Source: Rhodobacteraceae bacterium HTCC2150
GTDB lineage: Bacteria > Pseudomonadota > Alphaproteobacteria > Rhodobacterales > Rhodobacteraceae
NCBI GenBank assembly: GCA_000169395.1
Contig: AAXZ01000002.1
Location: 372,001-436,000, forward strand
Direction: 5' to 3'
Length of the DNA: 64,000 nucleotides
Shown piece after piece: positions 17,977 through 46,792 of the stretch. Under the pieces are notes generated by a model. The model searched no databases and was not told where the DNA came from. It saw only the letters and a program-made list of their open reading frames with translations. Numbering within the stretch: the stretch's first letter is position 1; every line of letters begins with the position of its first letter. A program made the position numbers and the translations under genes.

Positions 17977-18050
17977 CCCCGTAACATTTTATCTATTAAT
18001 TGGCATTTAGTCCCTGTGTCCTAAGCATGTTGCTTAACTGGGGAACTGAA

Positions 18051-18680
18051 ATGAACGATCTAGCGGAACTAGCAATAACGAACGAAAGCGTCTTTGACCC
18101 TGCCAAAGATAGCTTCACGTCGCGTGTGAAACCACCCAAACGCCCTTGGTCAAAGCCGACACCTGTTGCCCCCAGGGATAAACCAGCGCAAACCAGCTGC
18201 TTGCCTGAACTCGCGTTGATGCAAACACCCGACGGCATTCGTACATTGGACGAACTTTATGCCGGTGATAAATTGCTAACCAAAGACGGTCGTGCCGTAA
18301 CTATTCGCTGGATGGGCACCGGCTATGTGCGCTCAGCCGCGTTCCCAATGAACAGCCAATGCGACGACATCATCATCCCCAAAAATAGCCTAGGCTTAGG
18401 CTTACCTTTGATGGACCTACAAATTCCGGGCAATCAATTAGTCCAATTGTCCGAAGATCAAATTGTGCAAGCTGCATCCTTGAAAAAACGACGGGCTTTT
18501 GTACAAGAAGCGTGGGAAAACAATCTGCGACCGATACATGTTCACTTGGAACAGGATGAATTGGTCAATGCGAATGGCGTTTGGGTCAAACTGTTAGGGC
18601 GATGCCCCGACCCACGTATTTCATTATCCTTGCGACAACGCGAAGAGATTGCATCGCTTTACACTGGGTTCGTCGGCTAA
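18051..18680 (+). CDS. Hint domain-containing protein
   Basis: A 209-residue protein with a Hint (hedgehog/intein) fold. The start of the fold is visible as CLPELALMQTPDGIRTLDELYAGDKLLTKDG followed by VTIRWMGTGYVRS, the pattern shared with many Rhodobacterales Hint proteins that are not true inteins. The C-terminal part has HVHLEQDELVNANGVWV. No extein or secretion repeat is attached, so this is a stand-alone or degraded Hint protein. The ATG at 18051 follows GGGGAACTGAA; in-frame upstream codons lack a ribosome site. Function unknown. Confidence 0.78.
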   Translation: MNDLAELAITNESVFDPAKDSFTSRVKPPKRPWSKPTPVAPRDKPAQTSCLPELALMQTPDGIRTLDELYAGDKLLTKDGRAVTIRWMGTGYVRSAAFPMNSQCDDIIIPKNSLGLGLPLMDLQIPGNQLVQLSEDQIVQAASLKKRRAFVQEAWENNLRPIHVHLEQDELVNANGVWVKLLGRCPDPRISLSLRQREEIASLYTGFVG

Positions 18681-18830: not shown

Positions 18831-18871
18831 CTCACATCAGATAACCGCCGCGTGAACCACGCTTCTGTGAG
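18831..18871 (+). other. nested hairpin in the leader of the bufferin operon
   Basis: CTCACA (18831-18836) pairs with TGTGAG (18866-18871), enclosing GCGTG-AAC-CACGC (18850-18862). It sits 81 bases upstream of the precursor start, in a 271-base gene-free stretch that has no other recognisable element. It may be a leader structure. Confidence 0.35.
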
Positions 18872-18951
18872 TGGCAATAATTCCACCCTCGACGTAAATC
18901 TGTTCCATCGCTTCGGCGAAAGAGAATTTCAACCAACTAAGGAAAAATACC

Positions 18952-19242
18952 ATGTCTACAACTGTTAAATCACTGGCTGTTGCCGCTTCTGTTGCAGCTG
19001 CTCTTGCTGCCGCTGCTACTATTCCTGCACACGCTCAAGCAAAAGAAAAATGCTACGGCGTTTCCTTGGCTGGTGCCAACGATTGTGCGGCTGGCGCAGG
19101 TACAACATGTGCCGGCACTTCAACTGTTGATTACCAAGGCAATGCTTGGACATTCGTAGAAGGCGGCACCTGCGAAACTATGGAAGTAATGGGCGACCGT
19201 ATGGGTTCTTTGGAAGCACTAGACCGCGACCTACCTGCATAA
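18952..19242 (+). CDS. bufA1: BufA1/DUF2282 bufferin-type metallophore precursor
   Basis: A 96-residue secreted precursor. A long signal peptide (about residues 1-29, ending PAHAQA) precedes a small core with four cysteines at residues 34, 45, 53 and 74 (KEKCYG, NDC, TTC, GTC), the DUF2282 pattern. Bufferins are RiPPs whose core cysteines are modified by an MNIO enzyme and which bind copper in the periplasm. AAGGA stands 8 bases before the ATG. The genes for the MNIO enzyme, its partner and a DoxX protein follow in order. A terminator-like hairpin comes right after the stop, suggesting the precursor is made in excess over the enzymes. No other precursor copy is present in the window. Confidence 0.9.
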
Positions 19243-19249
19243 TATCATT

Positions 19250-19284
19250 AAGGGTGTCAGGCTTTGGTTTGGCACCCTTTTTTT
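19250..19284 (+). terminator. intercistronic terminator/attenuator between the bufferin precursor and its enzyme
   Basis: AAGGGTGTCA (19250-19259) pairs with TGGCACCCTT (19270-19279), 10 pairs with one T-G wobble and a ten-base loop, then seven T. It begins 7 bases after the precursor stop and ends 28 bases before the next start. A partial terminator here would lower enzyme expression relative to the precursor. Confidence 0.8.
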
Positions 19285-19312
19285 GTGCAAAAATGAATAT
19301 GGAATTTTTGAT

Positions 19313-20170
19313 ATGCTGGACGCAAGCGCACCGCAACAACACCCAATGCCAAACGCACCTGGTGTTGGATATAAACCCCAGCATTTCCAAGATATCCTAG
19401 CTGACGCTGGCCCAGTAAAATGGCTGGAGGTTCATGCCGAAAACTATATGGGACAAGGCGGTCGCCCGCTTGCCCAATTGCGCCATCTAGCTGAAACTTT
19501 TCCTATTTCGTGCCACGGCGTTGGGCTATCTATCGGCAGCGAAGGTGATCTTGATGCAGATCACCTTGCACGACTTAAGCATTTGGTTGATTGGCTTAAT
19601 CCCGCGCTTTTCTCTGAACATTTGGCGTGGTCCAGTCACAACAGTCACTTTCTAAATGATCTGCTTCCCCTGCCCTACACAGAAGAAACGTTGGCGACAG
19701 TCGCACGGCACATCGATCAAGTTCAAGAAACCGTTGGCCGGCAAATGCTGCTGGAAAATCCGTCTACATATTTGGCATTTGATCAATCCGACATCTCAGA
19801 AATCGATTTTTTGGCCGAGGTTACGCGCAGAACCGGTTGCGGTTTACTGCTGGATGTAAACAACGTGTTTGTTTCGGCGATAAACCAACAAACGGATCCG
19901 CGCGCCTATATCGATGCCTATCCTTTGGCCTCTGTGGGTGAAATACATTTAGGTGGACATGATGCCGACCACGACGAGGCAGGCGCCCCTTTGCTGATCG
20001 ACAGTCATGGTGCCGAGATTGTCGATCCAGTTTGGGCGCTTTATGCCTATACGATTGCAAAATCAGGACCACGCCCTACGTTGATCGAATGGGACAACAA
20101 CCTTCCGGATTGGTCTACCCTTGCCGCCGAAGCGACCCGCGCTAAAACGGCTTTGGCAGAGGTCGCTTGA
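19313..20170 (+). CDS. bufB: MNIO-family (DUF692) multinuclear iron oxygenase, BufB
   Basis: A 285-residue TIM-barrel protein of the DUF692/MbnB family, which modifies cysteines in peptide precursors using an iron cluster. Metal-ligand stretches are present: [33 protein letters not shown] and EIHLGGH. It is the expected maturase for the upstream precursor. The in-frame TTG at 19283 falls in the terminator T-run and is rejected; the ATG at 19313 has GGAA about 8 bases upstream. Its stop lies one base before the start of the next gene. Confidence 0.9.
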
Positions 20171-20171
20171 T

Positions 20172-20933
20172 ATGAGCAATGTCGGGCAACTTGAGTTTTC
20201 AGAGGCGATATTGGATCCAACGTCTGAGGTGCCTATGGGTCTTTCTAATCCAGACGGTCGACCGGCGCAAAAACGTTTTGATGTTTATCGCAATAACGTC
20301 ATTTTAAGCCTGCTTGATGCAATGGCCACCGGCTTTCCAGTTGTTAAAAAGCTGCTTGGTGATGACTTTTTTCGTGCGATGACATTGGAATTTGTCCGCG
20401 CTAACCCACCAAGTTCACCATTGATGATGCATTTTGGTACGGCTTTGCCAAATTTTCTAGAGGGTTTTGAGCCCGCTCAAAAACTTGGTTTTTTGCCTGA
20501 TATCGCCCGAATTGAAATCGCAATGCGCGAAAGTTATCACGCCGCAGATGCGGAACCTGTTTCTGGTGATTTATTGCAAACGACACCCCCAGACCAATTG
20601 ATGGAAATGCAATTTAAACTTGCGCCTTCGGTTCGCATGCTTAGGTCACGTTGGCCCATCTATAGCATCTGGCTTGCCAATCAAGAACCAGCTGGACCAA
20701 CACCTGAACCTGGTGGGCAGGCTGTCCTAATAACACGGCCAGAATTTGACCCTTGGCCAAATTTGCTGCCAGCAGGTGCCGCAACGTTGGTTATGGCCAT
20801 AGAAAATGGCGCTACTTTTGGCAACGCAATCGAGCAAACAACTGAAAAAGTGCCACACTTTGACCTTAGCCAAACCTTGGCCCTGTTATTACAGGCCAAG
20901 GCTCTTTGCCCCTTTAAGAAAGAAACCCCATGA
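20172..20933 (+). CDS. bufC: DUF2063 protein, partner of the MNIO enzyme (BufC)
   Basis: A 253-residue protein with the N-terminal DUF2063 domain (RFDVYRNNVILSLLDAM and FPVVKKLLGDDFF are hallmark segments) and a C-terminal domain that resembles a peptide-leader-binding module. In bufferin and methanobactin clusters this partner presents the precursor to the MNIO enzyme. It starts one base after the enzyme gene, and its stop overlaps the DoxX start as ATGA. Residues 1-110 are best conserved in the family. Confidence 0.87.
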   Translation: MSNVGQLEFSEAILDPTSEVPMGLSNPDGRPAQKRFDVYRNNVILSLLDAMATGFPVVKKLLGDDFFRAMTLEFVRANPPSSPLMMHFGTALPNFLEGFEPAQKLGFLPDIARIEIAMRESYHAADAEPVSGDLLQTTPPDQLMEMQFKLAPSVRMLRSRWPIYSIWLANQEPAGPTPEPGGQAVLITRPEFDPWPNLLPAGAATLVMAIENGATFGNAIEQTTEKVPHFDLSQTLALLLQAKALCPFKKETP

Positions 20934-21487
20934 ACAATCTACTGACCATGTACCAATCCATTTTTGCAAAGATAGAAACCGCCACCAACAATTGGTTTTT
21001 GCCAAGCGCTGCGCGACTGGTTTTTGCAGGAACACTTTTCGTATATTTCATCAAATCAGGCATGACAAAATTAGGCGATGGTTTTTTTGGCTTCCTAAGC
21101 CCTTCTACGGGCGCCTATGGTCAAATTTTCCCCAAAGCAATGGAACTTGTTGGGTTTGATACATCACAGTTAAGTTGGTTTCATTGGTTGGTGGCTGTGG
21201 CTGGTACATGGGCAGAATTCATTCTACCGGTGGCCGTCCTTTTGGGCCTATTCACACGGTTCGCGGCATTCGGCATGATCGGTTTTGTGTTCGTACAAAG
21301 CTATGTTGATGTATTCGGCCACGGTTTGGGGGCAAAATTCATCGGTACTTGGTTCGATAGCAACCCCTCCGCAATCATCTTTGATCAACGTGCCTTCTGG
21401 GTATTGATGTTGCTAATTCTAGTTGTACGTGGTGCAGGGCCTCTTTCGTTGGATCGCGTGCTTGGCATTGAAAAGACCGCTGAATAA
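20930..21487 (+). CDS. DoxX family membrane protein of the bufferin operon
   Basis: A 185-residue membrane protein with about four transmembrane helices and the DoxX pattern (RLVFAGTLFVYFIKSG near the start, VAGTWAEFILPVAVLLGLFTR in the middle). DoxX proteins are frequently the fourth gene in bufferin operons; their role is unclear, possibly membrane-linked redox or transport. Translation is coupled to the previous gene by an ATGA overlap, and a strong terminator follows. Confidence 0.85.
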   Translation: MNNLLTMYQSIFAKIETATNNWFLPSAARLVFAGTLFVYFIKSGMTKLGDGFFGFLSPSTGAYGQIFPKAMELVGFDTSQLSWFHWLVAVAGTWAEFILPVAVLLGLFTRFAAFGMIGFVFVQSYVDVFGHGLGAKFIGTWFDSNPSAIIFDQRAFWVLMLLILVVRGAGPLSLDRVLGIEKTAE

Positions 21488-21490
21488 ACA

Positions 21491-21518
21491 AAAATGGGCC
21501 CAAACGGGCCCATTTTTT
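21491..21518 (+). terminator. rho-independent terminator of the bufferin operon
   Basis: AAAATGGGCCC (21491-21501), loop AAAC, GGGCCCATTTT (21506-21516), then more T. It begins four bases after the DoxX stop. Confidence 0.92.
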
Positions 21519-21544: not shown

Positions 21545-21913
21545 CTAAAAGTGGCTTTTGGGCGTGTCAGGTTTACCTGCCGCCAATGCCAAAATGCCAG
21601 CTAATGCCGTCATGCCCTCTGGGAACATCGTGAATACGTTAAATCCAAATGCATGATACATGCCCGCGGCTGATAGCAGTAACAAGATGCCGCCAACCAG
21701 CGCATTTGAACGTGCCATTGCACCACCAGCAATTGCCAACAAAGGTGCTAGAAAACTAACTGTGCGAATGAGTGTTCGGTTTTCAACCTGCTCGGCCACG
21801 TCTGGAATTTCACCGAACCAATCAACAAATTCTGTATAGCCAAAGCTGAAAAATCCGACGATCAGTCCGATTAAGCCGCCAATAATACCTAGCATAAGTG
21901 CCGCGTTGCGCAT
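21545..21913 (-). CDS. small integral membrane protein (possibly DUF4064)
   Basis: A 122-residue protein with about four hydrophobic helices (near residues 5-28, 48-66, 70-90 and 97-113). It has a short loop between the first and second helix (TEFVDWFGEIPDVAEQVENR). The pattern fits a small uncharacterised membrane family. It is on the strand opposite to the bufferin operon and convergent with it, and upstream of the ArsC-like gene in the minus-strand direction no overlap is seen. Function unknown. Confidence 0.7.
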   Translation of the reverse strand: MRNAALMLGIIGGLIGLIVGFFSFGYTEFVDWFGEIPDVAEQVENRTLIRTVSFLAPLLAIAGGAMARSNALVGGILLLLSAAGMYHAFGFNVFTMFPEGMTALAGILALAAGKPDTPKSHF

Positions 21914-24222: not shown

Positions 24223-25260
24223 TTACGACTTGGTAGACGACAAGCGAGGTACCAACGCTTTTACGAGATCGCGCATGTTCAGTTCACCAACTGGTTCGCC
24301 ATTTTCAGTCACACGGTAATGTAGTGTTGTGTCACCTTCAGAACGACCAATCAAAGATTCTAGGTTGTCACGGATATCGACATCCCCAGCAAATTCGGTA
24401 CCGGTTATTGGCTGCATCACCGATTGCACACGCAAAACACGGGCGCGGTTAATGTCGCTTACAAAATCCTCGATATAAGGATCAGCAGGGTTCAAAAGAA
24501 TGCCCTGAGGCTCGCCCTGTTGAACAACTGCACCGTCTTTTAGGATCACAAGGTGATCCGCAAGTTTAAGCGCTTCGTCCAAGTCATGCGTGATGAACAC
24601 GATTGATTTGTGCAATTCATCTTGCAGTTCAAGCAATAGGTTCTGCATGTCTGTACGGATCAACGGGTCAAGTGCTGAAAACGCTTCATCCATCAACATG
24701 ATGTCAGTGTTTGCGGTTAACGCGCGCGCAATGCCCACACGTTGCTGCATACCACCAGACAATTGCGCCGGATAATGGTTCTCATATCCGCCTAAACCAA
24801 CCCGCTCTAGCCACTTCATGGCTTCGGCGTCTTGCGTCGCCTCATCCATTCCGCGAACCTTTAGAGACATCGCTGCATTTTGCTTTACAGTCCGGTGTGG
24901 AAGCAAAGCGAACTTTTGAAACACCATCGACATTCTGGTTTGGCGAATTTCGCGCAAACCATCTTCTGACAGCTTGCGCACATCTTCACCGTCAACCAGA
25001 ATTTCACCAGCTGTAGGTTCAATCAGACGGTTCAGGTGGCGGATCAATGTTGATTTGCCAGAACCAGAAAGGCCCATGACAACAGTGATTTCACCCGCCT
25101 GCATATCAACGTTGATGTCCTGCAAACCCAACACATGTTTATGTTGCGCCAACAGATCGTCTTTGCTGAGACCCGCTTTCACATGTTCCAGGGCGGCTTG
25201 GTCGTCGGCCCCGAAAATTTTGTAGAGGCCACGTAGACTTACTTTAGGAGTTTTCGTCAT
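24223..25260 (-). CDS. proV: glycine betaine/proline ABC transporter ATP-binding subunit
   Basis: A 345-residue ABC ATPase of the ProV/OpuAA type. Walker A GLSGSGKST is at 63-71, the signature LSGGMQQRVG near 169-178, and Walker B IMLMDEAF near 190. A C-terminal CBS-like region (from about residue 275) is shorter than the tandem pair of E. coli ProV. It powers uptake of osmoprotectants. Its start is 12 bases after the permease stop. Confidence 0.94.
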   Translation of the reverse strand: MTKTPKVSLRGLYKIFGADDQAALEHVKAGLSKDDLLAQHKHVLGLQDINVDMQAGEITVVMGLSGSGKSTLIRHLNRLIEPTAGEILVDGEDVRKLSEDGLREIRQTRMSMVFQKFALLPHRTVKQNAAMSLKVRGMDEATQDAEAMKWLERVGLGGYENHYPAQLSGGMQQRVGIARALTANTDIMLMDEAFSALDPLIRTDMQNLLLELQDELHKSIVFITHDLDEALKLADHLVILKDGAVVQQGEPQGILLNPADPYIEDFVSDINRARVLRVQSVMQPITGTEFAGDVDIRDNLESLIGRSEGDTTLHYRVTENGEPVGELNMRDLVKALVPRLSSTKS

Positions 25261-25271
25261 TTTCAGCGTCC

Positions 25272-26300
25272 CTAGTGTTTCATATGGGTCATATCGACCC
25301 GAGATAGTGCAGCCTTGGAAACGCGATCCAAGATTACCGCCAACAATACGATCCCGATACCAGCAACGATACCAACACCCAACTCAAGGTTACGAATACC
25401 GCGCAAAACGTTCACACCCAAACCAGGGGCAGAAACAAGTGACGCAATAACAACCATAGCAAGGGACATCATGATGGTTTGGTTGATACCAGCCATGATA
25501 TTTGGCAATGCCAGTGGCAGTTCAACACCTGTCAAACGCTGACGCGAAGTCATACCAAAGGCGTTCGCCGCCTCGATAACGTCCTTGTCAACAAGACGAA
25601 TACCCAGATCCGTCAAACGAATAACCGGCACGATCGCATAAAGAATAATCGCGATACCGTACAGTTTGGATTCTGTCACAGAGAACAAGAAGATCAGTGG
25701 GATCAGATAAACAAAGGTCGGTAACGTTTGCAGCAAGTCCAAAATCGGCACGACTGATCGTTGTAAGCGGTCAGATTTTGACATCGCGATGCCGACAGGC
25801 ACACCCAGCATGACCGAAATGCTCGTACAAACAAAGATGATTGAGAGCGTTTGCATGGCCACATCATAGTGGTCAACCAATCCCAACAACATAATTGAAA
25901 TAAGAACAAAGATTGTTACGGGTTTGGATTTTGATGCAAACCATGAAATGGCCACCAAAATCGGAACCATGATAAACCAAGGCGTACTTGCGAAAAGCCA
26001 CAAAGCCCCGTCCAACATCCAACTTAGGGGTTGAGTGATCGGGTCAAGTACATTTTTCAAGGCAGGTTTTGCAGCAAGAAAACCATTTTCGATGCCTTTG
26101 GTCACATCGCGTGACTGAATAATGCTAGAGCAGCTTTCACTCAAATTATCCAAGGATGGGAATGGAAAAAATTCACCCTCGGCTTCTTTACCACTACTTT
26201 TCGCAAGTAGATCTGCCATTGACATTGGTGCATCTGAACTTTTTTCACCACACCAGTTTGACATGCCAAACGTTTTGAAGAGACCGTCATAAAAGGCCAT
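25272..26300 (-). CDS. proW: glycine betaine/proline ABC transporter permease
   Basis: A 342-residue permease. A soluble N-terminal stretch of about 100 residues, as in ProW, precedes about six membrane helices with the BPD-transport EAA loop (EAANAFGMTSRQRLTGVELPLALPNIMAG). Partner of the ATPase downstream. The gap of 68 bases from proX holds a hairpin that may reduce expression of the two membrane-complex genes. Confidence 0.93.
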   Translation of the reverse strand: MAFYDGLFKTFGMSNWCGEKSSDAPMSMADLLAKSSGKEAEGEFFPFPSLDNLSESCSSIIQSRDVTKGIENGFLAAKPALKNVLDPITQPLSWMLDGALWLFASTPWFIMVPILVAISWFASKSKPVTIFVLISIMLLGLVDHYDVAMQTLSIIFVCTSISVMLGVPVGIAMSKSDRLQRSVVPILDLLQTLPTFVYLIPLIFLFSVTESKLYGIAIILYAIVPVIRLTDLGIRLVDKDVIEAANAFGMTSRQRLTGVELPLALPNIMAGINQTIMMSLAMVVIASLVSAPGLGVNVLRGIRNLELGVGIVAGIGIVLLAVILDRVSKAALSRVDMTHMKH

Positions 26301-26324
26301 TTTTTTCTCCCATATACAAAAGAA

Positions 26325-26351
26325 AACCTTCCCACCGATGGCGGGAAGGTT
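26325..26351 (-). other. intercistronic hairpin between proX and proW
   Basis: AACCTTCCC (26325-26333) pairs with GGGAAGGTT (26343-26351); on the minus strand it is followed by TTCTTTTG. It may act as a partial terminator or a stabilising 3' end for the proX message, giving excess binding protein. Confidence 0.6.
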
Positions 26352-26368
26352 CGTGTAAGCCTAAAGAC

Positions 26369-27337
26369 TTAGTTAAGGATGGCAGCCAAACGTGATTTGG
26401 CGTCGTCGCTCAACCAACCAGCCCAAACGTCTTTGTAGTTTGTTAGGAAGTAAACAGCAGCTTCGTCATAAGAAGCGTTGTTGTCCAAGCGCCATGCCAA
26501 CACTTCGCCCATTTGAGCGTTAGTGAATGCAACATTGCGCATTAGCTCAGCAGCGGCTGGCTCACGCTCAACGAATGAACCGGCAGCAGCTGTAACAACT
26601 TTTGATGCTGGGTAAGCGCCAAATACTGGGTTTTCACAACCGTCAACACCGTTACAAGCGTGACCTTCGGCGTTGTATGCTGGAACTTCAACAGCGACCA
26701 TTGGGTATTTACCCAAAACAGCTGTTGGCGCCCAGTAGTAACCGAACCAAGGTGCTTTGTCTGCATATGCAGCAGCGATTGATGTTTGAAGTGTTTCACC
26801 AGAACCGTGCTGGAAACGCTCAAGACCACCAGCTTCGGCGCCAGCAGCGATCAAGTTGTTGTTGTTGATGATGTCACATGCCCAACCTGATGGACAATCG
26901 TGGAATTTGCCGCCAACTGCTGCTGGGTTGGCCATGATGCCTTCCCAAGTTGTTAGCTCTGGGTTTGATTCAGCAAGATACGCTGGGATCCACCAAGCTT
27001 CTACACCACCGTCGGAAAGAACGTCAGCCAACTCAACCAATTTACCTTCGGCAACAAGGCCAGGGTAAGATGGTGTTGAGTTTGACCAAACTTCAGTCAG
27101 AATGTCAGGCTCGCCTGTTTCTGTGATAGAAGTGATCGCAGTAACTGTTGATGAAGGAACTTTTTGTACGGAACAGCCGTAGCCTTGTTCCATAATAAAT
27201 GTCGCAACCGCAGTCACAACGGCAGATGATGCCCAGTTCATTTCAGTGATTGTGACGTCGCCACAATCTGCATAGGCAGCATTCGCGCCCATTGTCAGTG
27301 CTGCCGCTGCGGCAACTCCAGTAAACATTTTTTTCAT
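26369..27337 (-). CDS. proX: glycine betaine/proline ABC transporter substrate-binding protein
   Basis: A 322-residue periplasmic binding protein of the OpuAC/ProX family. A Sec signal peptide ends near AYAD (residue 24). Conserved tryptophans and aromatic segments of the quaternary-amine cage appear (ITEMNWASSAV, LTEVWSNSTPSY, WWIPAYLAE and PWFGYYWAPT). The first gene of a proXWV operon; GGGAG stands 8 bases before the ATG. It captures glycine betaine or a related osmolyte. High expression is suggested by the hairpin downstream. Confidence 0.94.
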   Translation of the reverse strand: MKKMFTGVAAAAALTMGANAAYADCGDVTITEMNWASSAVVTAVATFIMEQGYGCSVQKVPSSTVTAITSITETGEPDILTEVWSNSTPSYPGLVAEGKLVELADVLSDGGVEAWWIPAYLAESNPELTTWEGIMANPAAVGGKFHDCPSGWACDIINNNNLIAAGAEAGGLERFQHGSGETLQTSIAAAYADKAPWFGYYWAPTAVLGKYPMVAVEVPAYNAEGHACNGVDGCENPVFGAYPASKVVTAAAGSFVEREPAAAELMRNVAFTNAQMGEVLAWRLDNNASYDEAAVYFLTNYKDVWAGWLSDDAKSRLAAILN

Positions 27338-42983: not shown

Positions 42984-45182
42984 GTGAACATAGCTGCCCC
43001 CTCAGTTTTGGCGACGACCAACTTCCTTGAAACACCAACACCCGTGCCAACGGTGTTGGATGCATCAGAGTTTGCGGGATCAAAACGGTTCATGAATCGC
43101 GAATTAAGTTGGCTCTCGTTTAACTGGCGTGTTCTTGAAGAAGCAAAAAACCCAAGGGTACCATTGTTGGAACGTGTGAAATTTCTGTCGATTTCCGCCA
43201 GCAATTTGGATGAGTTTTACACAGTGCGCGTGGCAGGTTTGCGTGAACTTGCTCGGGCTGGAAATACCAACCCTGCCGCCGATGGGATGACCCCAGCAGA
43301 GCAACTTTCAAAAATCAATGTAAACGCGCGCGAATTACTGGCAAGTCAGCAAGAGGTACGTCAAGAACTTCAGGGTTTATTGTCTGAGGCAGGGATTAAA
43401 ATTCTCGATCACAAAAACCTGACCGACGCTGACGTGAAATGGTTACGCGCATTTTTCATCGAGCAAGTATTTCCGATTGTTTCACCACTAGCCATCGATC
43501 CAGCCCACCCATTTCCGTTTCTGCAAAACGGTGGATTTTCGCTGGCACTCAAACTTAAGCGCAAGGCCGATGGGCGCATTCTTCAGGCACTATTGCCTGT
43601 GCCAAACCAAATCGAACGTTTTGTACGCCTCCCAAATTCAGGTGATGAAATTCGTTTCTTGCCCTTAGAAGATTTGCTTTTACTTAATGTCCCTGCCCTT
43701 TTTGCAGGCTATGAAATTCGTTCGCACTGTGCGTTTTTGGTATTACGCGACAGCGACCTTGAGGTCGAAGAAGAAGCCGAAGACCTTGTTCGAGAATTTG
43801 AAACGGCCCTTAAACGACGGCGTCGTGGCGAAGTGATCCGTCTTAAAATTTCCTCTGGTGCGCCAAGTGACTTGCGCCGTGTTATCGTTGAAAACTTACA
43901 CGTTAGCGAAGACGAAGTTGTCGAAATCAAAGGTCTTATTGGTCTTGCGGATCTGGCCGAACTGGTGATTGAGGATCGCAGCGATTTGCTGTGGCCAAAA
44001 TTCACCCCCCGTGTTCCGGAACGTGTTCAAGATCACGACGGCGATATGTTTTCTGCCATCAAACAAAAAGACATGTTGCTGCACCATCCTTATGAAACAT
44101 TTGACATGGTGGTGCGTTTCTTGGATCAAGCCGCCCGTGATCCAAACGTGGTTGCTATCAAACAAACGCTCTATCGCACCTCAAGCGAAAGCCCGATTGT
44201 AACAGCCCTTTGTGATGCGGCAGAAGCGGGTAAATCCGTAACTGCGCTGGTTGAACTAAAGGCCCGCTTTGATGAGGCCGCAAATATTCGCCAGTCACGC
44301 CGTTTGGAACGCTCTGGTGCGCATGTTGTCTATGGGTTTCTGAACTATAAAACACACGCAAAAATTTCGATTGTTGTGCGCCGTGAAGGTAAAAAACTGG
44401 TCACTTACACGCATTTTGGCACCGGCAATTATCACCCGATAACGGCCAAGTTTTATACCGACGTTAGTTTTTTCACCTGTGATGCCGCCTTAGGGCGCGA
44501 TGCAACCAAGGTTTTCAACTACATCGGCGGCTACGCGCCGCTTGAGGGTTTGGAAAACCTTGCCATTTCACCAGTGAACTTAAAATCGACACTTCTAAAA
44601 AACATAAAGGCGGAAATTGAATACGCTCGTAAGGGAAAGCCTGCTGAAATTTGGGCCAAGCTTAACTCTCTGATTGAACCAGATATTATCGACGCCCTTT
44701 ACGAGGCCTCTCAGGAAGGCGTCAAAATTGAATTGGTGGTCCGTGGCATTTGTGGCCTAAGGCCAGGTATCAAGGGCCTTTCCGAAAACATTCGCGTTAA
44801 ATCCATCGTCGGTCGATTTTTGGAACACTCCCGATTGGTCTGCTTTTCCAACGGTGGCGGATTGCCCTCGAAGAAAGCGAAAGTATACATCTCATCCGCC
44901 GATTGGATGGGGCGAAACCTGTCGCGGCGGGTTGAAACGCTGGTTGAAATCAAGAACGCCACAGTGAAGGCCCAAATTGTCAGCCAAATCATGGCCGCCA
45001 ACCTTGCTGATCAATCCCAAAGCTGGGTGATGAACGCCATGGGTGATTTTGAAAGACAATCTGATTTCACAGACAGGCAACAGTTTAATTGCCACAGATT
45101 TTTCATGGAAAACCCATCACTTTCTGGGCGCGGAACCGCCGGCGCGGCGGATGTGCCTAAACTGGCGCACTCCAAAGATTGA
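42984..45182 (+). CDS. ppk1: polyphosphate kinase 1
   Basis: A 732-residue PPK1. Both phosphohistidine-region signatures are visible: YKTHAKISIVV (catalytic histidine) and the second domain's SADWMGRNLSRRVE. The N-terminal RELSWLSFNWRVLEEA is typical. The enzyme makes polyphosphate from ATP at the membrane or in the cytoplasm. The start is the GTG at 42984, about 30 bases after hdaA. The partner ppx follows but is frame-shifted (see that entry). Confidence 0.95.
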   Translation: MNIAAPSVLATTNFLETPTPVPTVLDASEFAGSKRFMNRELSWLSFNWRVLEEAKNPRVPLLERVKFLSISASNLDEFYTVRVAGLRELARAGNTNPAADGMTPAEQLSKINVNARELLASQQEVRQELQGLLSEAGIKILDHKNLTDADVKWLRAFFIEQVFPIVSPLAIDPAHPFPFLQNGGFSLALKLKRKADGRILQALLPVPNQIERFVRLPNSGDEIRFLPLEDLLLLNVPALFAGYEIRSHCAFLVLRDSDLEVEEEAEDLVREFETALKRRRRGEVIRLKISSGAPSDLRRVIVENLHVSEDEVVEIKGLIGLADLAELVIEDRSDLLWPKFTPRVPERVQDHDGDMFSAIKQKDMLLHHPYETFDMVVRFLDQAARDPNVVAIKQTLYRTSSESPIVTALCDAAEAGKSVTALVELKARFDEAANIRQSRRLERSGAHVVYGFLNYKTHAKISIVVRREGKKLVTYTHFGTGNYHPITAKFYTDVSFFTCDAALGRDATKVFNYIGGYAPLEGLENLAISPVNLKSTLLKNIKAEIEYARKGKPAEIWAKLNSLIEPDIIDALYEASQEGVKIELVVRGICGLRPGIKGLSENIRVKSIVGRFLEHSRLVCFSNGGGLPSKKAKVYISSADWMGRNLSRRVETLVEIKNATVKAQIVSQIMAANLADQSQSWVMNAMGDFERQSDFTDRQQFNCHRFFMENPSLSGRGTAGAADVPKLAHSKD

Positions 45183-45232
45183 CGCATGTATTTTACGTCG
45201 AAGACTACGAAAAAACACTAAAGGGGCCTTAA

Positions 45233-46792
45233 ATGGACGCCGTATCAGACAACACGATTGAGGATTGGGGGCCCTTTGGCCGCCCATTGTTTGATGACCC
45301 ATCCAGTCGCGCACTCAGCCGTGTTGGCGTTGTTGATGTGGGATCAAACTCTGTAAGTTAGTAGTGTTTGACGGTGCCGCGCGTTCCCCGGCTTATTTCT
45401 TCAACGAAAGATTTGTGCGGGTTAGGTGCGAACATGGCCGAAACTGGCCGCCTTAACCCAAGTGGTCGAAAACGCGCACTTGCAGCCATTAAACGTTTTG
45501 TTTTGTTAGCAGAATCCATGGGAACAGGCCCTTTGACAGCTATTGCCACGGCCGCTGTTCGCGAAGCGACAGATGGTCAAGAATTCATAAGCGAAGTGAA
45601 GGCACAAACAGGTCTGAAAATATGGAAAATCGACGGTAAAGAAGAAGCGCGTCTGTCTGCACAAGGTGTTTTACTCGGCTGGCCCGAGGCCGACGGACTT
45701 GTATGTGATATTGGCGGTTCCTCCATGGAACTTGCCATTGTGAAGAACGGCAAAGTAGGCGCGCGCGTTACCTCCCCCCTTGGCCCCCTTAAATTGAGTG
45801 GTATTTCAGGTGGCCAAAAAGGATTAAAGGCGCACATAAAATCCGTCATCAATGGGCTGGCCGAAAACATCGGCACTCAACATCAACGTTTGTATTTGGT
45901 GGGTGGCTCGTGGCGGGCAATTGCGCGCGTAGATATGGAACGGCGCGAATATCCAATGCATGTTTTGCATGAATACGAGATGACACCCAGTTCGGTAAGT
46001 AAAACCGTTAAGTTTGTTCGTGAAAATGACATGGATAGAGTACGTGAAAATACCGGCACAAGTGCCGAACGTATGGCTTTAGTGCCAACGGCTGCCCTTG
46101 TCTTACAACAGTTGGTGTCAGTTTTTGGGCCCAAAAAGATCAGTATTTCCAGTTTTGGGATTCGTGAAGGTATGCTTTACGAACAAATGCCGCAAAAATT
46201 GCGTGCACGTGACCCTTTGATCGAGGCATGCCGTTTTGATGAACGCCAAAATGCAAGGCAAGCTGGTTTTGGCAAAAAACTGTTTAATTTCATCACGCCG
46301 TTGTTTGGTAAAATGTCCGATCAACGCCGCCGAATTGTTATGGCGGCGTGCCTTTTGCATGACGTTTCTTGGCGGGCACATCCGGACTACCGCGCCGAAG
46401 TGTGTTTTGAAAACGCGACAAGGGCAAACCTTGGGGGATTAAAGCATTTTGAACGTGTTTCGTTGGGATTTGCCCTATTGCACCGTTACAAAAATAATAG
46501 ACCAGGCCAATTTGAACCATTGGCCGAAATGTTAACCGAACAGGAATTGAACCAAGCGGTTATTTTGGGGCGCGCCATGCGATTTGGTTCGATGTTGGCA
46601 GGTGCTGCACCAGAATCGCTGGCACAGTTAAAATGGCAACCTAAGAAAAAGGTGCTGACGCTGATCCTTGATCCAAAATATGCTGATCTTTATGGCGAGG
46701 TCGCCGAGGCCCGTTTCCAATCACTTGCCAACGCGCTTGGGGCGACAATTGATATTTCGCACAAAAAACTTCCTACAGCGAAGGTTAACTAA
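45233..46792 (+). pseudogene. ppx: exopolyphosphatase (Ppx/GppA), frame broken near the N-terminus
   Basis: The ATG at 45233, behind AAGGGG, opens a frame that gives the family start DAVSDNTIEDWGPFGRPL and GVVDVGSNSV, then meets TAG TAG at 45359-45364. The next 17 codons of the family sequence (LVVFDGAARSPAYFFNE) continue in the -1 frame at 45359-45408. After that the original frame resumes with LCGLGANMAETGRLNP and runs to 46792, carrying the remaining Ppx and HD-like domain. This fits one base missing near 45356-45358 and two bases missing near 45408-45412 (net one codon lost), or a sequencing error. A restart inside the gene would lose the phosphate-binding motif. The product, if whole, would release phosphate from polyphosphate. 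Confidence 0.88.

Follow-up and report, generated by a model that had tools for sequence, protein, structure and literature searches.

The bufferin operon and its genes

The window analyzed here is a stretch of 64,000 nucleotides (nt) from Rhodobacteraceae bacterium HTCC2150 (GenBank assembly GCA_000169395.1, contig AAXZ01000002.1, positions 372,001 to 436,000 of the forward strand). Positions 18952-21487 of the window hold four genes that, judged by their sequences, are a complete Buf1 bufferin operon, bufABCD, of a known and common kind; the control of the operon, not the operon itself, appears to be new. A sequence-only reading of the stretch had named these four genes, a precursor with four cysteines and a bufferin-type operon, and each of these points was borne out, with all four genes scoring above the Pfam cutoffs.

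The first gene, bufA (18952..19242, + strand), encodes a Buf1 (DUF2282) precursor of 96 amino acids with four cysteines that matches Pfam profile PF10048 (E 3.1e-23; 81.9 bits against a cutoff of 22.4). Read by eye, with no predictor behind it, the leader has a basic start, a hydrophobic stretch and the sequence AHA-Q, and is of Sec-type appearance. Mature BufA contains exactly four cysteines, as it does in 84/84 family loci that were read. Two genera (L043 in G007 and L064 in G100) carry two tandem bufA copies before one bufB. The second gene, bufB (19313..20170, + strand, with its ATG at 19313), encodes a 285-residue MNIO (DUF692) bufferin maturase, which passes the cutoff of the NCBIfam model NF050167, "MNIO family bufferin maturase" (384.6 bits; cutoff 310), and matches PF05114 with an E value of 2.3e-108. 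Among solved structures, its sequence is closest to two DUF692 proteins, 3bww (E 1.3e-45) and 8hci, and to several entries for MbnB. Residues H68, H103, E148, D181, N184, H212, D230, H232 and E259 are among those invariant in 83 family BufB sequences, and some of these are presumably iron ligands. The best full-length BufB identity among the matches listed was 76%, to Thalassobium sp. R2A62. The remaining genes are bufC (20172..20933, + strand; PF09836, E 1.8e-24, 86.2 bits over a cutoff of 27.2), which encodes a DUF2063 partner protein, and bufD (20930..21487, + strand; PF07681, E 1.6e-6, 29 bits over a cutoff of 23.6), which encodes a DoxX-family membrane protein. Assignment to the oxazolin (Hvf) system was rejected, with BufB, BufC and BufD below the equivalog cutoffs of HvfB (248.5<360), HvfC (48<142) and HvfX (32.3<80), as was assignment to methanobactin, with BufB below the cutoff of the MbnB equivalog TIGR04159 (50.8<325).

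The tight gene order described from the sequence holds overall, the last 4 nt of bufC being shared with the start of bufD, except that a gap of 70 nt containing a terminator-like hairpin separates bufA from bufB. The earlier claim of a single precursor also stands: a whole-genome profile search gave one match each to PF10048 and PF05114 in the 3.58 Mb genome. For comparison, 120 genomes of the family were sampled, one per genus and still related to each other, and the DUF2282 precursor was present in 85/120. The profile scores and this conservation exclude a chance match. One bufA-positive genome (G098), whose contig begins inside bufA, was left out, which gave 84 loci with readable upstream DNA.

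Published systems are described here from excerpts of the cited papers. In Buf1, the modification falls on the two central cysteines and a disulfide links the outer pair; the cysteine-derived thiooxazoles sequester periplasmic copper (PMC12452194). A related MNIO enzyme assembles with its partner into a heterodimer; three irons copurify with this complex, and its reaction yields 5-thiooxazoles (PMC13097082). By homology, BufB with BufC would turn the central pair of BufA cysteines into thiooxazoles by oxidation, and modified BufA, exported by Sec, would chelate excess periplasmic copper, with BufD as a putative accessory membrane protein. The term metallophore, used in the sequence-only reading, is likewise carried over from characterized relatives. 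The "captophorins" (Haemophilus oxazolin, fontiphorin and gonophorin) likewise combine an MNIO enzyme with a DUF2063-type partner and yield 5-thiooxazole products, and DoxX and DUF2282 are frequent in clusters of this type, but captophorin precursors differ from BufA in carrying EGKCG repeats (PMC13097082). The gig ("gold-induced genes") operons of Cupriavidus metallidurans, which the authors of a survey regard as bufferin clusters (PMC12452194), are reported to rise in expression with gold, silver and copper (PMC8224329).

Sigma-F promoters and the CGTGA element upstream of bufA

A close parallel is in Caulobacter, where CC3254-CC3257 have the identical family order of DUF2282, DUF692, DUF2063 and DoxX, and are controlled by sigma-F from GTAACC-N16-CGAA, preceded by sigF (CC3253) and the gene of its negative regulator (CC3252) (PMC3511200). 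The operon in the window is unlike this one in that it has no NrsF, no sigma-F promoter and a repeated CGTGA element. No match to the anti-sigma factor NrsF (PF06532) was found in the HTCC2150 genome (G000) at E 0.001, under conditions in which the Caulobacter control matched, and a relaxed sigma-F motif had no match in the 400 nt read upstream of its bufA. The sequence-only reading had reported no linked sigma factor or copper gene, and a scan of seven neighboring genes agreed, copper genes elsewhere in the genome not having been searched for. It had also left the regulation of the operon open; this can now be narrowed, given that a sigma-F promoter is absent and that another conserved element is present, which is related to one before msrA.

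Across the family, NrsF was found in 14/85 bufA-positive genomes (HTCC2150 and two further sets of 40 and 44), encoded at most about 3 kb away on the same contig as bufA in 13/14 and on another contig in one (G083), and in 2/14 searched genomes that lack bufA. The sigma-F motif, G[TG]AAC-N16-18-CG[AT][AT], lies upstream of bufA in 11/14 NrsF-positive loci (shuffle mean 0.36) versus 4/70 NrsF-negative loci, where the shuffle mean of 2.0 puts it at chance level. Chance expectations were taken from single-base shuffles throughout and, for the bufA motifs, from dimer shuffles as well, which changed the expectations little.

The CGTGA element shows the opposite distribution. Searched with the expression YGTGAnTGG or GTGA-N11-GTGA, it occurs in 53/70 NrsF-negative loci (shuffle 0.8) versus 0/14 NrsF-positive loci, and the repeated form GTGA-N11-GTGA alone occurs in 37/70 versus 0/14 (shuffle 0.24 and 0.02). 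The bufA expressions were composed after 41 of the 84 upstream regions had been viewed. Sixty loci picked by an iterated matrix gave the consensus TnACG-N4-CGTGA-NN-CACG-N4-YGTGAnTGG, followed after about 21 nt by TAnnnT. The window copy of this tandem consensus occupies 18842-18874 and consists of two putative activator sites on the + strand, dyad 1 (TAACC-N4-CGTGA, 18842..18855) about 60 nt before the likely transcription start and dyad 2 (CCACG-N4-TGTGA, 18857..18870) about 44 nt before it, with GTGG directly after dyad 2 at 18871-18874. The segment GTGANNCACGNNNNNGTGA at 18852-18870 is the sole zero-mismatch match in the genome. At the position that TAnnnT takes in the 60 aligned promoters, the window has a weak candidate -10-like element, TAAATCT (18895..18901, + strand), an imperfect match. 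A scan for the sigma-70 consensus returned six promoter-like sites, none upstream of bufA.

A sequence model of the bufA element (R1) was built from 38 of the 60 tandem segments, leaving out weak, odd and near-duplicate ones. Searched over 20 genomes, R1 ranked the bufA promoter first in 17/17 NrsF-negative, bufA-positive genomes, a result that is circular for 16 of them, with only G052 outside the training set; the HTCC2150 site, C24:390841-390876 (window 18841-18876), belongs to that set. In two NrsF-positive genomes and one without bufA, R1 gave only weak matches (E 0.26 to 0.72).

The NrsF-positive loci carry a looser form of the dyad. The relaxed dyad CAC-N6-G[TC]G[AT] was present within 100 nt around the promoter at 12/14 of them (shuffle 0.36), and in 10 it sits 5-6 nt before the GTAAC of the sigma-F -35. 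Outside the family, the relaxed dyad and the sigma-F motif occur together at, for example, L209, L210 and L212, observations that carry no chance control. One genome (G010) is intermediate: its operon follows thrS, but a gene for an extracytoplasmic function (ECF) sigma factor and nrsF lie between thrS and bufA, and its promoter is of sigma-F type. These sequences suggest that the dyad predates the promoter switch. A BufB tree was made by a quick method from 83 of 84 rows (one was dropped for length), and no branch of it set the outgroup apart from all other sequences. On this tree the NrsF state must change 3-4 times, with gain versus loss unsettled; the tree is compatible with few switches and gives no direction. 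In the same tree, BufB of L066 (G077) clusters with L199 and L201, from a Hyphomicrobiales metagenome-assembled genome and Mesorhizobium, a grouping that suggests transfer between orders.

Related dyads before msrA, and the surroundings of the operon

A weak R1 match (L243, E 0.086) precedes a gene for MsrA (PF01625) with a leader of exported appearance. A dyad expression was composed after this one msrA site and then kept fixed for all counts. MsrA matches were found in 23/24 bufA-positive genomes, and when the 21 best loci were read, the dyad was upstream in 17/21 (shuffle 0.96). Genomes lacking bufA had an exported-type msrA in 15/35, with the dyad before 9/15 (shuffle 0.75); because the dyad precedes msrA in genomes without bufA, the factor that would read it there appears to be independent of the bufferin. 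The same expression matched 72/3029 random windows of bufferin loci, and it was found before cspA in 2/54, arsC in 3/54, thrS in 0/55, bufD in 1/78 and the DUF4064 gene in 4/29 cases. Counted from the start of the first TCAC, 16 aligned msrA segments invariably have T at +31 and G at +33, and 15 of them have TTG, the start of a -35-like element.

A second model, R2, was built from 16 of 20 msrA segments, selected in the same way as for R1, and its matches at msrA are circular for most genomes. The HTCC2150 site, a member of the R2 training set, is at C25:255283-255321 (E 0.0023), where it is flanked by a sulfotransferase gene and msrA; gyrB, a pfkB-family kinase gene, mutS, grpE and hrcA are nearby. 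Over 25 genomes, R2 gave weak, scattered matches besides msrA. Two of these, in HTCC2150 (E 0.10) and G031 (E 0.40), precede orthologous fusions of an alpha/beta hydrolase with OsmC (PF02566), and both sites have the same 31 nt to TTGCG; an OsmC-type enzyme as a third target of the dyad is suggestive only. Upstream of the OsmC fusion of HTCC2150 is a gene for an M24-family peptidase (L332 99-1439, on C24), which may resemble the dimethylsulfoniopropionate lyase DddP. A perfect TCACG-N4-CGTGA dyad was also seen before a di-haem cytochrome c peroxidase gene in an NrsF-positive genome (L236 in G034; R1 E 0.51). Fifteen weak R1 or R2 loci were examined and most lay inside genes or before unrelated genes, and eight single-dyad sites of the HTCC2150 genome viewed in context, including four perfect TCAC-N6-GTGA, had no consistent targets.

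Two hairpins accompany the operon. The one between bufA and bufB (19250..19279, + strand) is terminator-like, with 13 pairs, of which 6 are G-C, and a T tail; a comparable hairpin within 75 nt after the bufA stop was found in 17/84 loci versus 1.1 expected from shuffles. It may lower expression of the enzymes relative to the precursor, in which case BufA would outnumber them. A second terminator-like stem follows bufD (21490..21517; 12 pairs, 6 G-C). It is reported on the - strand, and on the + strand, too, the stem is followed by a T run.

In the window, a threonyl-tRNA synthetase gene (thrS) lies upstream of the operon and ArsC-family and cold-shock genes lie downstream; the seven neighbors scanned were the threonyl-tRNA synthetase, Hint-domain, DUF4064-like, ArsC-family, cold-shock, MatE transporter and ABC ATPase genes. 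Within the family, thrS lies no more than 5 kb upstream on the same strand in 61/84 loci, and arsC is in the fetched stretch in 53 of these 61. The operon is thus an established part of these chromosomes rather than a recent import. A Hint_2-domain gene (18000-18680, + strand) separates thrS from bufA in the window, and among 40 loci compared only L043 (G007) has a weakly similar gene (25% identity) in the same gap. A gene for a DUF4064-like small membrane protein, below the profile cutoff (21545-21913, - strand), lies between bufD and arsC, as in many relatives. Farther away, the surroundings are of a housekeeping kind and include an ABC (ATP-binding cassette) transporter with an OpuAC glycine betaine-type binding protein (24223-27337, - strand) and a polyphosphate kinase gene adjoining Ppx/GppA (42984-46792, + strand).

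A putative activator of bufferin and msrA genes

We hypothesize, with a probability of about 0.68, that this Buf1 operon stands outside sigma-F/NrsF control and is transcribed from a sigma-70-like promoter, whose tandem TnACG-N4-CGTGA dyads at about -60 and -44 would be sites of a putative trans-acting stress activator that also controls exported MsrA and, possibly, an OsmC-type enzyme. If bufferin and msrA do share an activator, copper buffering would be tied to the repair of oxidized proteins. The best arguments for a functional dyad and for a role of the operon in copper or oxidation stress are conservation and the parallel with the Caulobacter sigma-F regulon. That regulon is in the core copper response and includes an MsrPQ homologue besides two bufferin operons (PMC8224329, PMC3511200), so that bufferins are coupled there with periplasmic methionine sulfoxide repair (PMC8224329). 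The present case differs in that the candidate shared element is the dyad rather than a sigma-factor promoter and the repair gene encodes an MsrA with an exported-looking leader. By this analogy, bufferin and methionine-sulfoxide repair would again be paired here, under different control.

Several observations weigh against this hypothesis. At bufA, 17/70 NrsF-negative loci lack the element by expression, and 10/70 score under 6 even with a matrix built on these loci, six of the ten being away from thrS; by expression, the element is found in 48/60 NrsF-negative loci near thrS versus 5/10 elsewhere. Dyad 1 and the -10-like element of the window are both imperfect, the strict dyad CAC-N6-GTGA occurs anywhere in 400 nt at 7/14 NrsF-positive loci (shuffle 0.28), and the hairpin between bufA and bufB was detected in just 17/84 loci. 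Single dyads are not commoner in the HTCC2150 genome than their reversed control (14/12 versus 12/10), and a wide regulon is therefore not seen. At msrA, dyad 1 of HTCC2150 is likewise imperfect, and its site lies between divergent genes, so that the sulfotransferase gene could be the target. The tandem period is 15 nt at bufA versus 16 nt at msrA, and that the two are the same site is therefore something we infer. The OsmC target comes from two weak matches, and the dyad was present in 0/2 plasmid-borne Rhodobacterales OsmC copies read, of 643 matching records. Finally, no gene for a DNA-binding protein lies directly beside bufA or msrA, and the repressor gene hrcA, about 4 kb from the msrA of HTCC2150, remains a candidate.

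A repressor would also fit much of this evidence. The operon could be an ordinary bufferin operon in which the dyads are operators, with bufA and msrA kept shut by a repressor that copper or an oxidant would displace; palindromic tandem sites suit repressors equally well, and co-regulation of bufA and msrA is predicted alike. The arrangement of the promoters makes this unlikely in our judgment. The dyads lie upstream of the -10 and -35 positions, and the aligned bufA promoters have no TTGACA-like -35, which is better for activation, and the msrA segments have their fixed T and G and, in 15/16, TTG downstream of the dyads. At bufA, the placement of the dyads around -60 and -44, together with a -10-like element and no TTGACA-like -35, would suit an activator.

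The metal raises a separate alternative, that the peptide acts against a different metal or stress (gold, silver, cadmium, sulfite or hypochlorite) and that copper binding is incidental. Functions that go beyond copper are anticipated in the bufferin survey (PMC12452194), and the predicted partner msrA indicates oxidation as much as copper, but the Caulobacter gene set belongs to the core copper response and a sigF mutant is copper-sensitive (PMC8224329), and we consider this alternative no more probable than the repressor. Far less credible is the idea that the CGTGA elements are the unusual -35 of another ECF sigma factor that replaced sigma-F: the element of NrsF-negative loci is close to the sigma-F -35 position of NrsF-positive genomes and further ECF factors are likely in these genomes, but the 25 nt from GTGA to the conserved TAnnnT are too long for a -35/-10 pair, and the relaxed dyad is also found at 12/14 NrsF-positive bufA promoters and before TTG at msrA.

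Extended from this operon to the Rhodobacteraceae, the activator hypothesis becomes more tentative, and we put the wider claim at slightly less than an even chance. The family would have an undescribed stress regulon in which a dyad-binding activator, acting at tandem TCACG-N4-CGTGA, controls bufferin, exported MsrA and OsmC, and this activator would have replaced sigma-F in the thrS-linked majority; hence, two unrelated regulators would serve copper buffering and methionine-sulfoxide repair in different Alphaproteobacteria. Searches of the open PMC literature listed no paper whose title or abstract deals with such a bufferin promoter in Rhodobacteraceae and nothing relevant on a TCACG/CGTGA motif with copper, and bufferin-related terms were not found in excerpts of a paper on Sinorhizobium RpoE1/RpoE4 (PMC3511301). 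If most bufferin operons of the family are free of sigma-F and have a site shared with msrA, copper buffering would belong to the oxidation-repair response in these bacteria. The family concerned is large and mainly marine, and the dyad site would offer a direct handle on the regulator of its sigma-less bufferins.

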